NCBI GenBank assembly: GCA_947074145.1
Contig: CAMTOJ010000009.1
Location: 1-64,000, forward strand
Origin: an uncultured Bacteroidales bacterium
Lineage (GTDB): Bacteria > Bacteroidota > Bacteroidia > Bacteroidales > JAUNSR01
DNA: 64,000 nt
Direction of reading: 5' to 3'
A model generated the notes under the pieces. It was given only the letters and a program-made list of their open reading frames with translations, was not told where the DNA came from and did no database searches. Positions 7,610 through 46,582 of this stretch are shown here, one piece after another. The number at the start of each line of letters is the position of its first letter. The stretch's first letter is position 1. Both the position numbers and the translations under genes were made by a program.

Positions 7610-7663
7610 AATATTGTTTTTTATGTATCGGGGAGCAGATTTCAGATTCATAGAGAGATTCTC

Positions 7664-7751
7664 GCTGCTCCTTGCTATGTATCAACTGATAACTAGCAAG
7701 TTATCAGTTGAATCCTTGCTAGTTATCAGTTGATACATAGCAAGGAGCAGC
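7664..7751. repeat. 88-bp perfect inverted repeat with nested palindromes
   Basis: Positions 7664-7700 and 7715-7751 are exact 37-bp reverse complements around a 14-nt centre (7701-7714). Smaller dyads are nested inside. CAACTGATAA (7683-7692) pairs with TTATCAGTTG (7701-7710), and TTGCTA/TAGCAA (7672-7677/7694-7699) pairs within the left arm; the right arm has the same TTGCTA/TAGCAA. The element can therefore form one long hairpin or alternative shorter ones. There is no T-run, no transposase and no obvious target duplication. It lies between the divergent acetyltransferase and M16 peptidase genes; the rest of 7652-7952 is AT-rich with one candidate promoter. Confidence 0.9.
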
Positions 7752-7904
7752 AAAAAGACTTTTAGGTTTTACAAAAACATATCAATTATTGATATTTATA
7801 CTTGTAACGCCTGAAAATCATGAAATTTACATCTCCGAAAGACGTTAATAATTTTAATTTATAACCATATCACCCGTTTATCGGTTCAACTCTTTGAATT
7901 TTAT

Positions 7905-33819: not shown

Positions 33820-34911
33820 TTATTTACAATTAGCAGTTTTAAGCACGATTTCAGCTATTTTATCAGCTGCATCGTAATAAGCCATTTTCTTCACATTCTC
33901 ACTTAACTCATTAAGTTTCTTATCATTCTTCAATGTCTCAATTGCAACATCAACCAACTCTTTCTCTGCGTCAATATCCTTTACAAATATAGCCGCATCA
34001 TTTTCAGATAAGGCAAGAGCATTTTTTGTTTGATGATCTTCTGCTACATTAGGTGAAGGGACCAAAATAGATGGTTTACCCAAGACACATAATTCCGAAA
34101 TAGAACTTGCTCCGGCTCTTGAAATAACAAGATCCGCTGCTTTATAAGCAAGATCCATTCTTGTTATAAACGGACTTCTAAACAACTGTCCCGCTATTAT
34201 CTTCTCGGAAGAAGCATAACCCTTACCTGTTTGCCAGATAACTTGTATATCCTCTCTTTCAAATTTATCCAATCCGTTTTCTATACTTTTATTTATGGTT
34301 AAAGCACCAAGACTTCCACCAATAACAAGTATAGTCTTCTTATCTGAAGCAAGACTAAAATATTTTTGAGCCTCAACCAAATCAGCATTATTAGCTTGTA
34401 AATCCTGACGTATCGGATTTCCTGTTTCTACTATTCTGTCGGCAGGGAAGAAACGCTCCATGTTTTTATATGCAACACATATTTTTGAAGCATTCTTTGC
34501 AAGAAGTTTATTTGTTACGCCTGCATATGAATTTTGCTCCTGAATTACGGTTGGTATCTTTTGAAAATTTGCAACCCGAAGGGTAGGACCGCTGGCATAT
34601 CCTCCAACACCCACAACAATATCCGGATTAAAATCTTTAATGGTTTTATTCGCCTTTATTATCGATTTTAAAAGATCGAAAAGAACGGTGATATTCTTAA
34701 ATAAGTTCTTTCTGTTAAATCCTCTGACAGGTAAACCTATAATAGGATAACCGGCAGCCGGAACTTTTTCCATCTCCATTCTGCCTTCTGCTCCAACAAA
34801 TAAAATTTCAGAGTCCGGTTTTATCTTTTTTATAGCGTTAGCAATAGAAATAGCCGGAAATATATGCCCTCCGGTACCTCCACCACTTATTATTACTTTA
34901 AATTTTTTCAT
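33820..34911 (-). CDS. murG: UDP-GlcNAc:lipid I N-acetylglucosaminyltransferase
   Basis: 363 residues of GT28 type with the N-terminal GGGTGGHIFPAI loop, GVGGYASGP, and the donor-site region SRAGASSISEL. It makes lipid II from lipid I on the inner face of the membrane. It is separated from ftsW by 100 nt, the widest gap inside the operon; that gap has a small 6-bp hairpin (34941-34955) but no clear promoter. Confidence 0.98.
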   Translation of the reverse strand: MKKFKVIISGGGTGGHIFPAISIANAIKKIKPDSEILFVGAEGRMEMEKVPAAGYPIIGLPVRGFNRKNLFKNITVLFDLLKSIIKANKTIKDFNPDIVVGVGGYASGPTLRVANFQKIPTVIQEQNSYAGVTNKLLAKNASKICVAYKNMERFFPADRIVETGNPIRQDLQANNADLVEAQKYFSLASDKKTILVIGGSLGALTINKSIENGLDKFEREDIQVIWQTGKGYASSEKIIAGQLFRSPFITRMDLAYKAADLVISRAGASSISELCVLGKPSILVPSPNVAEDHQTKNALALSENDAAIFVKDIDAEKELVDVAIETLKNDKKLNELSENVKKMAYYDAADKIAEIVLKTANCK

Positions 34912-40479: not shown

Positions 40480-42606
40480 TTATTTCAAATTCAAAACAAT
40501 AGTCTCTCCTTTTGATATGCGTCGTCCGGAGGGTTTAGATTGCTGATAAACTTTACCGCGACCATTAATTTGCACCTTCATTCCTCTGTTTTCAAGAATA
40601 TATACGGCATCTTTGGCTCCCATTCCCACTACAGAAGGAATAAGACTTTCATCTCCCGACATTTCTGTCAACATTATCTTATTGTTTGAAACTGTGGCTT
40701 TTGCCCAATCCCATTCTTTATCTTTATCATCATCATCCAAAGGAAGATTCAGCTTGTCAAACAATTTTGTAAGCTCTTTATAACTTCCGGATTTTGCTAA
40801 CGGCAAGAATTGATTTAAAGTATCATTCTTTTCATATTCCACCGCCACACTTCTGCCCTGAGCATAAACTCGTTCAGCCACATTTTTAAACACCATACCC
40901 GACATTCCTCCACCTGAAGGATATCCGTTTCTCGGAGCCCTTATCACAACAATACATGAGTACATTGGTTTATCAGCCGGGAAGTAACCGCAAAAGGATA
41001 CCTGATGTCTTTTTCCTCCGTTTTTATAACCCATCGCTCCTTGTGAAAGCTGTGCTGTTCCGGTTTTCCCTGCAAGAAGAAGCTTATCCGATTTTATCAT
41101 CTTTGCTGTCCCTTGTTCAACTACGTCCAACAACATTTGACGTATATTACCCAATGTAGCCGGAGTACAAATTGAAGAATTGATAGTTTCGGTCTTAAAC
41201 TTTTGTATCACCTCTCCATCTTTGCTTATATTTTTCACAAGCACAGGCTTAATAAGTTTTCCGTCATTTGCCAATGCATTGTAAAAATTCAAAGTATATA
41301 TCGGAGGAATCTGAGTTTCATAGCCGAATGACATCCATGGAAGAGTTGTCTTCGACCAATATTGTACAGAATCCTTAGGATGTCTGATCTTTGCACGACC
41401 CGTTCCGGGAATACCTATATCGAGAGGCTTATTAATCTTGGTTTCATAAATCGCCTCAACAAAAGCTGACGGATTTTTTTCAAAACCTTTTAATATCGCT
41501 TTTGCCACCCCAATATTAGAAGAGTACCATATCGACTGCGCCGCTGTTATCTTCCCATATCCTCCGTGGCTCATATTATGATCGGTCATTTTTGCACCTC
41601 TGTACATATAATAGCCCGGTCCCGTATCAATTGTATCATTCGGTTTCACTATTCCTTTGTCAAGAGCAATCATCATCGAAAGTGTCTTAAATGTAGAACC
41701 CGGTTCCGATTCATCTGAAACTGCAAAGTTTTTTGTTTCCGCATATTGTCCCACATTAATCCTGCCAAGGTTTGACATTGCCTTAATCTCTCCTGTTTCA
41801 ACTTCCATAAGAATTACCGTTCCGGATTCAGCATCAATCTCCGTCAATTTATCAAGAAGAGCATTGTGAACAATGTCTTGCATATCAATATCAATCGTAG
41901 TTGTGATATCCATACCGTTTATCGGCTCCTTTTCAGGTGTAATATGATAGCGACCTGCAACTTTTTGCCATGTTCCGACTCCCGGTTCCCCTTTAAGCAA
42001 AGAATCAAGAGACAGCTCCAGTCCGTTTTTACCACCTTTACTCATATCACCGTAAACATCTCCGATAGTTCTTGATGCAAGCTGTCCGAAAGGTTTCTTT
42101 CTTTGAGCCATCTCTTCAATCACCATACCGCTACGGTGAGATCGTTGTTTCAGAAAAGGGAAGGTGTACAATTCTTTCATATCGGTATATGAAATTTTCT
42201 TCCCGATCAATCTATAATGTCGACTTCCGCTATTATATCCTCTCATGATATGAGCGGAGTATTCCGATGGTGATTTATCTTTAAATTTTTCAGACAATCG
42301 TCTGCTAAGTTCCGGCAAATGGTTTTTTAATGTGTCAAATTTCAGACCATCGGCCTTAAAATCCATATATACATAATACTGAGGAATACTACTTGCCATC
42401 AAACGTCCGTCGCATGCATATATATTCCCCCTCTGGGGATCAATTCTTTTATCTTCAATTTTTAATCTGGAGATCTTTTTCATCCATCCCTCTTTTTCAA
42501 CCACAGCCGACTCAAAAGCCTTCCAGAAAATTGCAACGCCTACAGCTGCGGCAAAAAGAAAAACAAAAAAGAATCTGATCTTTATACCTCTTCTTGTTAT
42601 CGCCAT
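40480..42606 (-). CDS. ftsI: Divisome transpeptidase PBP3 with PASTA domain
   Basis: 708 residues. A short cytoplasmic start and TM helix (about 10-28) lead to the PBP dimerisation domain with RGNIYACDGRLMA, then the transpeptidase domain with SxxK (Ser304, Lys307 in PGSTFKT), SxN (Ser362-Asn364) and KTG (514-516). A single PASTA domain (about 650-708, IPSVVGMGAKDAVYIL) ends the protein. It crosslinks septal peptidoglycan with FtsW. It sits between ftsL and murE, which supports FtsI over a sporulation PBP (SpoVD), which also has PASTA. Confidence 0.95.
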   Translation of the reverse strand: MAITRRGIKIRFFFVFLFAAAVGVAIFWKAFESAVVEKEGWMKKISRLKIEDKRIDPQRGNIYACDGRLMASSIPQYYVYMDFKADGLKFDTLKNHLPELSRRLSEKFKDKSPSEYSAHIMRGYNSGSRHYRLIGKKISYTDMKELYTFPFLKQRSHRSGMVIEEMAQRKKPFGQLASRTIGDVYGDMSKGGKNGLELSLDSLLKGEPGVGTWQKVAGRYHITPEKEPINGMDITTTIDIDMQDIVHNALLDKLTEIDAESGTVILMEVETGEIKAMSNLGRINVGQYAETKNFAVSDESEPGSTFKTLSMMIALDKGIVKPNDTIDTGPGYYMYRGAKMTDHNMSHGGYGKITAAQSIWYSSNIGVAKAILKGFEKNPSAFVEAIYETKINKPLDIGIPGTGRAKIRHPKDSVQYWSKTTLPWMSFGYETQIPPIYTLNFYNALANDGKLIKPVLVKNISKDGEVIQKFKTETINSSICTPATLGNIRQMLLDVVEQGTAKMIKSDKLLLAGKTGTAQLSQGAMGYKNGGKRHQVSFCGYFPADKPMYSCIVVIRAPRNGYPSGGGMSGMVFKNVAERVYAQGRSVAVEYEKNDTLNQFLPLAKSGSYKELTKLFDKLNLPLDDDDKDKEWDWAKATVSNNKIMLTEMSGDESLIPSVVGMGAKDAVYILENRGMKVQINGRGKVYQQSKPSGRRISKGETIVLNLK

Positions 42607-43003: not shown

Positions 43004-43915
43004 TTACAATTTCTCAGCAATTCTGAGTTTAGCACTTCTTGATCTCGGATTACGCTCCACTTCCTCATCGGAAGCAACAATAACCCTGTTGTTCACAAGA
43101 CGGAAAGGAGTGTTGACCTTTCCAAAAAAGTCTTTGTCGAGTTTTCCCTCGAAGTTTCCTGTTTTCATAAAGTTCTTCACAAGTCTGTCTTCGAGCGAAT
43201 GATAGGTTAACACCACAAGTCTCCCTCCGGGATTTAATTCTTTAAGTGCACTTGTCAGCATCTGTTTTAATGCTCCCATTTCTTCGTTTACCTCTATGCG
43301 CAAAGCCTGAAAAATCTGCGCAAGCTCTTTTTTCTCCTGTTTCTTGTTGACAAATCGTCCGATTACCTCAAGAAAATCGTCAACTGTTTCAAACTTCTTT
43401 TGTGACCTCCTGTTAACAATTGCAGAAGCTATTCTTCTCGAGTTCTTCATCTCTCCATAGAGATAAAAAATATCAGCAAGAGCTTCTTCGTCATAAGTGT
43501 TTAGAATTTCGGCAGCCGTTTTTCCTCCCGTACGGTTCATTCTCATATCGAGTTTACCGTTGAAACGGAATGAAAATCCTCGCTCTTCATCATCAAAATG
43601 GTGAAAAGATACGCCAAGATCGGCAAGTATCCCATCAACACCATCTACCTGATGATACATCATAAAATTTGATAAAAATTTAAAATTACTCCTTACAAAA
43701 ACAAATCTGTCATCATCTACGATATTTGCTTGTGCGTCTTCATCTTGGTCGAATGAGTACAAAACTCCTTCGTCGCCTAATCTTGCCAATATAGCTTTGC
43801 TATGGCCACCTCCGCCAAAAGTCACATCTACGTAAGTCCCGTTTTCCGCGATATTCAACCCTTCCATACATTCCTCAAGGAGAGCGGGAATATGATATAC
43901 AGTTTCTTCTTGCAT
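43004..43915 (-). CDS. rsmH: 16S rRNA (cytosine1402-N4)-methyltransferase
   Basis: 303 residues of the RsmH/MraW family: HIPALLEECMEGL, the SAM-binding TFGGGGHSKAIL, the insert with GILADLGVSFHHFDD and RGFSFRFNGKLDMRM, and LTYHSLEDRLVK near the end. It methylates C1402 in the ribosomal P site. It is the first gene of the dcw operon here; the usual preceding gene mraZ is absent. Confidence 0.98.
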   Translation of the reverse strand: MQEETVYHIPALLEECMEGLNIAENGTYVDVTFGGGGHSKAILARLGDEGVLYSFDQDEDAQANIVDDDRFVFVRSNFKFLSNFMMYHQVDGVDGILADLGVSFHHFDDEERGFSFRFNGKLDMRMNRTGGKTAAEILNTYDEEALADIFYLYGEMKNSRRIASAIVNRRSQKKFETVDDFLEVIGRFVNKKQEKKELAQIFQALRIEVNEEMGALKQMLTSALKELNPGGRLVVLTYHSLEDRLVKNFMKTGNFEGKLDKDFFGKVNTPFRLVNNRVIVASDEEVERNPRSRSAKLRIAEKL

Positions 43916-44242: not shown

Positions 44243-44318
44243 AGTATATAACTTTTAATCATATTCCTGTTTTTATTCTTTATTCCAACCAAATTAAATT
44301 TTTTCAATGATGTTTTAT

Positions 44319-44404
44319 ATCCTATACGCAAATAGAATATATCCTAAAGGCGTATAGGATTAAACCTAAAAGCGTGTAGGATGTATCCTAAAAGCTGTTA
44401 GGAT
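44319..44404. promoter_or_regulatory. Array of four 22-bp-phased palindromes
   Basis: Four copies of ATCCTA-N8-TAGGAT begin at 44319, 44341, 44363 and 44385, an exact 22-bp period with 2-nt linkers. Copies 2 and 4 have perfect outer arms; copy 3 begins AACCTA and copy 1 ends TAGAAT. The N8 centres share an A/G-rich core (aaggcgta, aaagcgtg, aaagctgt). The phasing places every site on the same DNA face, as expected for cooperative binding of a dimeric regulator. It lies 163-178 nt before the Ig-like lipoprotein start and about 400 nt before the dcw operon. Confidence 0.75.
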
Positions 44405-44581
44405 AGAAAAGGTTATTTGGAAAATTTAAATCTTGAATGAATAATAATGTTAAATAATAAGCTTTAAACTATAGAGGTCTTAATATCTGACGAAGAAAAC
44501 AGAGTGTAATGGGCATAAAGCTAATTATTCCCGCGAAATTCATATCTTTACTTCTGTTTTTGTATAATGACAGAAAATAAT

Positions 44582-46582
44582 ATGAAAAAAATATTCAATT
44601 CATTTTTTTTACTCTCAATCGCCTCACTTATATCAATATTCATATTGCATTCTTGTGCAAATATTGCTCGTCCCGGTGGCGGACCTTTCGATGAAGAACC
44701 TCCTATATTCTTAAATTCCAAACCTTATCCGAATCAGGTAAATGTCTATCCGAAGAAAATAGAACTTCATTTTGACGAAAATATAAAGTTGGATAATCCT
44801 TTCACAAAGGTGATTGTATCTCCTCCTCAAAAAACTGCTCCGATTATTAAGTCGAATGCAAAAACAGTTACAATTGAGCTTAAGGACTCTTTAAAAGCAA
44901 ATACTACATATACAATTGATTTTACAGATGCTGTACGCGACAATAATGAAGGGAATATATTAAACAATTTTTCTATCGCTTTTTCAACGGGTAATGTGAT
45001 TGATTCTCTTAAAATATCCGGCACATTACTTAGCGCGGAAAATCTTGAGCCTCAATCAGGTATAATAGTTGGAATTCATTCGGATCTCTCTGATTCGGCT
45101 TTTGTTTCTAAGCCTTTTGAGAGAATAGGTAAGTCGGACGAACAGGGTCGTTTCAACATTTACAATATTACACCGGGAACGTATAAGGTTTATGCATTAA
45201 AGGATATAAACAGCAACTATATGTTTGACTTGCCGGGAGAAGATATCGCGTTTCTTGACTCTTTGATTGTGCCAAATGTTGAAATAATGATGCACAATGA
45301 TACAGTATTTTCACTCAATAAATCATCGAGAAGTGCCAAAAAACTTGCGGATAATATGAACGTCGGTTTGTCAACAGACTCTGTAAGAAGAATCCCCGTA
45401 CCACACTATTATCCAGATAATCTTGTATTGAGAACCTTTAATGAGAATAAGAAAACTTTGTATCTTGAAAAAAGCGAACGAGAATCTCCTGAGAAATTGA
45501 ATATTTATTTCAGCGCACCTCAAGATTCAACAGTTATTCTAACTCCAATTAATTTTGACGATACAGATTGGGCTGTTATTGAAAATTCTAAAAAGAATGA
45601 TACATTGCATGTCTGGGTTAAAGATTCTATGATCTTTAAAATTGATACTTTAAAGATTGCGGTGACTCATCAATACACCGATACTCTAAAGCAGTTGTCA
45701 ATTAAAACCGATACAATAAATTTTGTACAACGTAACAAAGCTCAGGCTGAGAAAAAGAGTGAAAAATCAAAATCAAAGAAAAATAAAGATGAAGAGATCT
45801 CTGCCGATAGCGTAAAGATTGAATTTATATCTTTTAAGGATAATATTTCGTCATCAATGGATATTGGCGTAAGACCTAAATTAACTCTTCCTGTGCCTAT
45901 AGCAGATATAGATAAAGAGATGTTTCATGTAATGCAAAAGGTGGATACTCTTTTTGTTGATCAGGAATTCGAGATCAGACCCTCGAAAGATAATGAGAGG
46001 GAGTTTGAAATAAGAACTAAACTTAGCCCGGGAGAAAGCTATAGAATAACTATCGATTCGGCTGCTGTAAATAATATATACGGTTTACATAATAATCTAT
46101 ATAATAAAAGTTTTACAGTAAAAAAAGTTGAAGATTATTCAAGTCTTGTTTTCGATATTACAGGTGTAGAAGGTGATGCTTTTGTAGAAGTTCTTAACAG
46201 TTCGGATAAACCTGTAGCTAAAGCTACGGTAAAAGATGGTCAGGCTAAATTTCCACATCTTAAACCGGGAACATATTATGCTAGAATTGTGTTAGATAAA
46301 AACAACAACGGTGTCTATGATACAGGCGATTATGCTCTTGGTATTCAACCCGATGAAGTATATTATTACAATATGCCGATTGAGTTGAAAGAGTTTTGGC
46401 GAGTGAAACAGGATTGGAATATCAATAGTTTACCTTTGACGAAACAAAAACCGTTGGAGATAACTAAAAACAAACCTAAGGAAGTAAAATCTAAAAACCG
46501 AAACGAGCAATATCAAAATAAAAAATCGTCAGGTAACAGTTACGGCGGGGGTACTATCTCGGGTGGTACCATAAAAAGATAA
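44582..46582 (+). CDS. Ig-like (SbsA/Big_5) domain lipoprotein
   Basis: About 666 residues. I start at ATG 44582 (MKKIFNSFF) because it directly begins the lipoprotein signal; an in-frame ATG at 44567 would add MTENN. The lipobox is ILHSC, followed by ANIARPGGGPFDEEPP, the standard start of these Bacteroidetes lipoproteins. An SbsA-type Ig domain follows (about residues 40-135, FDENIKLDNPFTKVIVSPP), then beta-rich repeats and a Gly/Ser/Lys/Asn-rich end. Function unknown; envelope-located. A DUF3108 gene follows after 13 nt, so the two form an operon. Confidence 0.86.
   Translation: MKKIFNSFFLLSIASLISIFILHSCANIARPGGGPFDEEPPIFLNSKPYPNQVNVYPKKIELHFDENIKLDNPFTKVIVSPPQKTAPIIKSNAKTVTIELKDSLKANTTYTIDFTDAVRDNNEGNILNNFSIAFSTGNVIDSLKISGTLLSAENLEPQSGIIVGIHSDLSDSAFVSKPFERIGKSDEQGRFNIYNITPGTYKVYALKDINSNYMFDLPGEDIAFLDSLIVPNVEIMMHNDTVFSLNKSSRSAKKLADNMNVGLSTDSVRRIPVPHYYPDNLVLRTFNENKKTLYLEKSERESPEKLNIYFSAPQDSTVILTPINFDDTDWAVIENSKKNDTLHVWVKDSMIFKIDTLKIAVTHQYTDTLKQLSIKTDTINFVQRNKAQAEKKSEKSKSKKNKDEEISADSVKIEFISFKDNISSSMDIGVRPKLTLPVPIADIDKEMFHVMQKVDTLFVDQEFEIRPSKDNEREFEIRTKLSPGESYRITIDSAAVNNIYGLHNNLYNKSFTVKKVEDYSSLVFDITGVEGDAFVEVLNSSDKPVAKATVKDGQAKFPHLKPGTYYARIVLDKNNNGVYDTGDYALGIQPDEVYYYNMPIELKEFWRVKQDWNINSLPLTKQKPLEITKNKPKEVKSKNRNEQYQNKKSSGNSYGGGTISGGTIKR

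Follow-up and report, generated by a model that had tools for sequence, protein, structure and literature searches.

Phased dyad arrays dispersed through a Bacteroidales genome are linked to HU-HIG genes and may be the binding sites of their products

The window analysed here, a 64,000-nt stretch from the genome of an uncultured Bacteroidales bacterium, carries an array of four dyads between rsmH (43004-43915, minus strand) and an ORF for an Ig-like lipoprotein (44567-46582, plus strand). The dyads start at 44319, 44341, 44363 and 44385, with an exact spacing of 22 bp, and TRF described the array with a period of 22, 4.1 copies and a score of 87. The original prediction had read it as four copies of ATCCTA-N8-TAGGAT. 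The positions and the spacing were right, but the sequence is exact at 44341 and 44385 alone, the two other dyads having one mismatch each. The features of the array, which belongs to a family that we call A, are the following:

44298..44425, no strand: whole family-A element, symmetric, 128 bp, made of an ATTTT end, four dyads and an AAAAT end (ungapped alignment of 12 copies)
44299..44302, no strand: T-tract on the left side (T at these positions in 10-12 of the 12 copies)
44319..44338, no strand: dyad 1, ATCCTATACGCAAATAGAAT, one mismatch (..TAGAAT)
44341..44360, no strand: dyad 2, ATCCTAAAGGCGTATAGGAT, exact
44363..44382, no strand: dyad 3, AACCTAAAAGCGTGTAGGAT, one mismatch (AACCTA..)
44385..44404, no strand: dyad 4, ATCCTAAAAGCTGTTAGGAT, exact
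44421..44424, no strand: right A-tract, mirroring the left tract (A in 11-12 of 12 copies)

MraZ operators consist of directly repeated TGGGN sites, one every 10 bp. As in these operators, phased sites lie here next to rsmH. They differ, however, in motif and period (TGGGN at about 10 bp versus CCTA-N8-TAGG at 22 bp), and mraZ is absent: the genome, which is 95% complete, gave no PF02381 match, while positive controls were detected. This agrees with the original prediction, according to which mraZ is missing and the array is not an MraZ operator. As neither the TGGGN motif nor the mraZ gene is present, we rejected control of the array by MraZ.

By searching the whole genome with a two-dyad pattern, we found 12 clusters, each with exactly four in-phase dyads. 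With at most one mismatch there were 35 in-phase two-dyad matches versus none for a reversed-pattern control (39 versus 8 with at most three mismatches). In all 12 copies a T-tract precedes the first dyad by 16-19 bp and is mirrored by an A-tract past the last one, which defines the element as a symmetric 128 bp. The TTT/AAA ends are kept in 11-12 of the 12 copies at a fixed distance in the ungapped alignment. A sequence model (R1) recovered every copy at E<=1e-20 and added a truncated remnant on contig C27 (E 0.004). With the same model, the best match in 20 relatives was no stronger than E 0.006, and nothing comparable was found in four congeners.

Within the dyads, CCTA/TAGG is retained at 370 of 384 positions, whereas identity between the cores of different copies is about 50%, with nearly equal values for the same and for different array positions. 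The cores are also heterotypic, an AARG half nearly always facing a half of another kind (one AARG:AARG unit versus 7.4 expected, P 1e-4), and their polarity is mixed within arrays. Conserved half-sites around diverged cores are the mark of selection on a binding site, which makes each dyad a candidate site. The core physical idea of the original prediction, namely that dyads on one face of the helix would be bound cooperatively by a dimeric protein, is supported as a prediction drawn from sequence.

All 12 family-A arrays are intergenic, and their neighbour genes have neither identity nor function in common. Six lie between divergent, five between codirectional and one between convergent genes, in agreement with a length-weighted intergenic background of about 42, 49 and 10%, respectively. 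Control specific to the dcw or lipoprotein operon, which had been proposed for the window array, is not supported, given these dispersed copies without a common neighbour and with background-like orientations. A promoter-specific operator was likewise rejected, as the orientations in this genome come in background proportions.

The window holds an array of a second family (B) as well:

7659..7756, no strand: family-B element, three TTATCA-NN-TGATAA dyads with a 22-bp period and inverted ends CTGCTCCTTGCTA..TAGCAAGGAGCAG

Its neighbours are a small acetyltransferase-like ORF on one side and an M16 peptidase-like ORF on the other (named by eye). Family B occupies about 17 places in the genome, with three dyads and a distance of exactly 66 bp between its ends. 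A third family (C, ACACCTTGCAAGGTGT) has 3-4 dyads and 76 two-dyad matches; on contig C7, five of its arrays lie at 4.4, 24.7, 47.6, 66.4 and 87.9 kb, a near-constant spacing of 19-23 kb. The patterns of families A, B and C were all unmatched in a sister species (G003), which has instead a family D (ACRSTGNCAATATTGNCASYGT), mostly with three dyads and with symmetric ends. The period itself is shared: symmetric arrays numbered 24 at lag 22 versus at most 6 at the other lags from 16 to 30 in 1.13 Mb of our genome, and 8 versus at most 2 in the sister. In 400 kb of a congener (G004) we found no clear family of 22-bp arrays.

At the seven sites where synteny could be checked, the sister lacks family A each time. 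One of these sites, gyrA/clpC, is occupied in the sister by an array of family D. The intergenic DNA of the sister is unalignable, so there is no clean empty site, and the ends of families A and D are symmetric and weakly conserved. The 20 arrays of the sister whose flanks were examined lie between predicted genes, two of them reaching the end of an ORF that had been called mechanically; 3 are in divergent, 12 in codirectional and 5 in convergent contexts.

The combined density of arrays is 25.6 per Mb in our genome and 25.5 per Mb in the sister. Arrays were also more evenly spaced than chance, by tests chosen after the positions had been seen: on contigs C1-C9 of our genome, the minimum distance between arrays is 12.1 kb (P 1.5e-4; P 4.5e-4 for the CV), and the minimum spacing departed from chance within families (P 1e-4) as well as across families (P 0.027). 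Same-family neighbours clustered by contig with P 0.025, which is suggestive at most, and we make no claim of macrodomain clustering of family A on that figure. A link to oriC was also set aside, since dnaA lies on contig C15, which has no family-A array, and the contigs cannot be ordered.

The gene adjoining one of the family-A arrays encodes an HU-HIG protein (PF18291). In HU-HIG proteins, an HU/IHF-like DNA-bending domain is fused to a winged helix. Three such genes were detected in this genome, each by an array of a different family:

C4:43240-43890: HU-HIG ORF, full family-A array directly upstream, at 74 bp
C5:40947-42038: HU-HIG ORF, family-C array directly upstream, at about 300 bp
C16:60143-60949: HU-HIG ORF, family-B array farther upstream, at 1.1 kb, beyond one intervening gene

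The proteins encoded at C5 and C16 share 50% identity and have similar arrays (CTTGCAAG, CTTGCTAG). Identity between the C4 and C16 proteins is 34%, and the array of C4 is a different one. A genome-wide search with an 85-aa probe, which could miss distant relatives, detected no further HU-HIG paralog. Elsewhere the probe found one HU-HIG gene in the sister species (C72:14401) and none in the congener G004 at 1e-6; in the latter, AT-rich repeats with a 21-bp period (AAATTTNNNNNTCGACGGTCA and variants) occur in several locations. Scans of viral sequences returned no relatives of HU-HIG. Between the family-C array and the start codon of the C5 gene (about 42030-42200), we also noticed ten-bp direct repeats (CAGTTGNCGA).

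Outside this genome, a Parabacteroides distasonis record (L353), labelled plasmid yet carrying chromosomal genes (rpsP and glmM among them), has an HU-HIG gene immediately preceded by a 21-bp array of four dyads (GCCGACGNCGTCGGC), a second copy of which lies at 34,027. Its protein and the three array-linked ones above match PF18291 well above the family cut-off. We then applied the same scan to a new sample of 11 HU-HIG genes from Bacteroides finegoldii, P. massiliensis and P. distasonis. In eight of them, a symmetric array of dyads with a 21- or 22-bp period lies 59-186 bp upstream, the dyad motif differing from gene to gene; the other three had no array at threshold. The roughly 270 kb scanned contained only one other such array. 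The probability of this linkage arising by chance is about 1e-15 or less, and it stays under 1e-14 even if a density of 30 arrays per Mb is assumed. By eye, a promoter-like TAnnTTTG box stands a few tens of bp before several gene-linked arrays, a position that suggests autorepression of the HU-HIG genes.

When three gene-linked arrays (two from P. distasonis, one from B. finegoldii) were used as queries, they matched in 9, 7 and 11-12 records, respectively. The matches were confined to the same species, with almost no annotated gene underneath. Four orphan copies that we read directly are intergenic arrays, located between an OPT transporter gene and recR, between susC and relA-spoT, after secG and upstream of groES. 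Two P. distasonis orphan copies have flanks beyond the array in common with the gene-linked copy, which means that copying of the element does occur. In the P. distasonis record that carries rpsP and glmM (NZ_OY725747.1, L354:2927-3760), a 23-bp-period symmetric array follows right behind a gene of HU type (PF14848) and its DUF4469 partner, hinting that the array rule extends beyond HU-HIG.

Dyad arrays that are dispersed and constrained, a tight linkage to HU-HIG genes with a private motif for each gene, and orphan copies elsewhere are thus what we observed. The window array itself, with four dyads at 22 bp and symmetric ends, fits the pattern of 3-4 dyads at 21-22 bp between symmetric ends, and we regard it as probably an orphan copy of the putative binding-site array of an HU-HIG protein, whose gene-linked copy would serve autoregulation while the orphans would anchor the chromosome. 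Each dyad, as double-stranded DNA, would be occupied by one HU-HIG dimer. With three or four dimers lined up on the same helix face and bendable A/T tracts at both ends, the roughly 130 bp could then fold up into a compact complex. Such a complex would mediate autoregulation at the HU-HIG gene; at the spaced orphan arrays, it would act as an anchor that organizes the chromosome. We infer binding by HU-HIG proteins and autoregulation through the gene-linked array. The role of the orphans as anchors is the least certain step, to which we give slightly less than an even chance. Counting against the proposal, the family-B array is separated from its HU-HIG gene by 1.1 kb and one gene. The non-orthologous sites in the sister and the shared flanks in P. 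distasonis suggest an element that was copied recently more than a fixed architecture.

These last observations would also be expected if the arrays were MITE-like, non-autonomous mobile DNA, in which the dyads bind a transposition protein, target immunity spaces the arrays and a host factor or regulator, HU-HIG, has been captured. Dispersed intergenic copies, their absence from the sister at seven syntenic sites, the truncated remnant on C27, the near-perfect inverted ends of family B and the common flanks of two P. distasonis copies all speak for it. However, conservation is strongest within the dyads and not at the ends, motifs were kept while cores diverged, and the number of dyads is fixed. 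Moreover, the genes to which arrays are tightly linked are those for HU-HIG, arrays of three different families keep apart from one another (P 0.027), and no Y1 transposase was found in the five genomes searched. We judge this explanation improbable. Mobility is nevertheless likely to be the means by which some families spread, and it is compatible with function. REP/RAYT elements were rejected, with PF01797 (Y1 transposase) unmatched in G000-G004, controls positive, and no covariation. So was a phage or plasmid origin, as the patterns of families A and B were unmatched in viral_contigs and that of family B in plasmids.

It is equally unlikely that each family is a regulon, that is, the set of operators through which one HU-HIG regulator controls adjacent genes, here including the dcw and lipoprotein operons. 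Arrays just upstream of HU-HIG genes are what autoregulation would predict, and many orphan arrays do lie upstream of some gene. But the orientation contexts in our genome, convergent sites included, equal the intergenic-length background, the neighbours have no common function and the distances to start codons vary widely.

Arrays acting as transcript hairpins or cruciforms, of which the RNA hairpins were raised in the original prediction, have very little probability in our assessment. RNA folding of the elements is strong (z -7.4 for the plus strand of the window), but this is explained by their overall inverted symmetry. In family A, pairing within dyads, between linkers and dyads and across the whole element never exceeded shuffled controls and was mostly below them, and the same held, at or below controls, for pairing and covariation in family D of the sister. 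Symmetry without covariation in both families points to dyads of double-stranded DNA; the symmetry of the arrays is that of a putative double-stranded binding site and not of an RNA hairpin. Consistent with this, core polarity is mixed within arrays, the cores are heterotypic, and Rfam has no match within the window. The mismatched cores may also stop the DNA from extruding as a hairpin.

A neutral minisatellite with dispersed look-alikes is hardly credible: the arrays are tandem repeats by definition and species-specific in sequence, but all 12 copies have exactly four dyads with symmetric ends, half-sites were conserved while cores diverged, and lag 22 is unique. The motif is indeed missing from the sister at seven syntenic sites and the copies are scattered, as the original prediction had associated with a neutral repeat, but a spacing of exactly 22 bp and a count of four dyads are retained in the scattered copies, which are in this unlike a neutral tandem repeat.

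The proposed HU-HIG arrays can be compared with systems in which one protein uses tens of dispersed palindromic sites to organize the chromosome, namely MatP/matS, Noc/NBS and SlmA/SBS. The likeness lies in the dispersed, spaced palindromic sites; here density and spacing agree, the role of the protein being presumed. Unlike these systems, which use single short palindromes, our genome has tandem phased dyads in several families, and the motif changes between sister species. In the portions of the report that we drew on (PMC4596501), the BrickBuilt elements of Porphyromonas gingivalis resemble our arrays in being a dispersed, exclusively intergenic, species-specific tandem repeat (19 elements, 23 nt). 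BrickBuilt elements are direct repeats in 1 to 22.8 copies with a long distinct leader and tail and IS-like ends, whereas the arrays described here consist of dyads, always 3-4 of them, between short symmetric ends; those portions mention no link to HU-HIG (PMC4596501). In the same species, the gene for the HU protein PG0121 flanks a locus with a 77-bp inverted repeat, for which somewhat preferential binding was reported (PMC3969353). This recalls our arrays in that a gene for an HU-type protein lies near a long inverted repeat, but the protein is an HU and the inverted repeat is single, and the parts of that report seen describe neither a phased array nor dispersed copies (PMC3969353).

Reading the array upstream of an HU-HIG gene and then finding its orphan copies gives, from the DNA alone, a predicted target for most members of the family. 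HU-HIG proteins (PF18291) are widespread in Bacteroidota, and our literature search on them found no paper describing their target sites. Their function thereby becomes directly testable in cultured gut species, e.g. B. finegoldii and P. distasonis. More tentatively, and with a probability we set somewhat lower than that of the anchors themselves, the arrays could belong to a general chromosome-organizing system of Bacteroidales, in which each HU-HIG family has a private tandem-dyad code, shown both in its own promoter and in tens of intergenic anchors set apart from one another, the code differing between sister species at a constant total density of anchors. We know of no MatP/Noc-like system described in Bacteroidota. 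If orphan arrays are chromosome anchors, they would constitute an architecture system for the phylum with an unusually fast turnover of its code.

Finally, a pattern scan across taxa gave matches in Prevotellamassilia, Ignavibacteria and others, which are partly due to the imposed pattern and are not evidence of homology. In Prevotellamassilia timonensis An873, tandem arrays of a 22-bp unit (TAGGTGCGCTCCTA) occupy about 28 loci; they vary in copy number and are possible further relatives. In several rumen genomes (Prevotellaceae/Bacteroidales MAGs), a two-dyad CCTATTTGTNGGTAGGGAAATACCTA site occurs at what seems to be the same promoter region.
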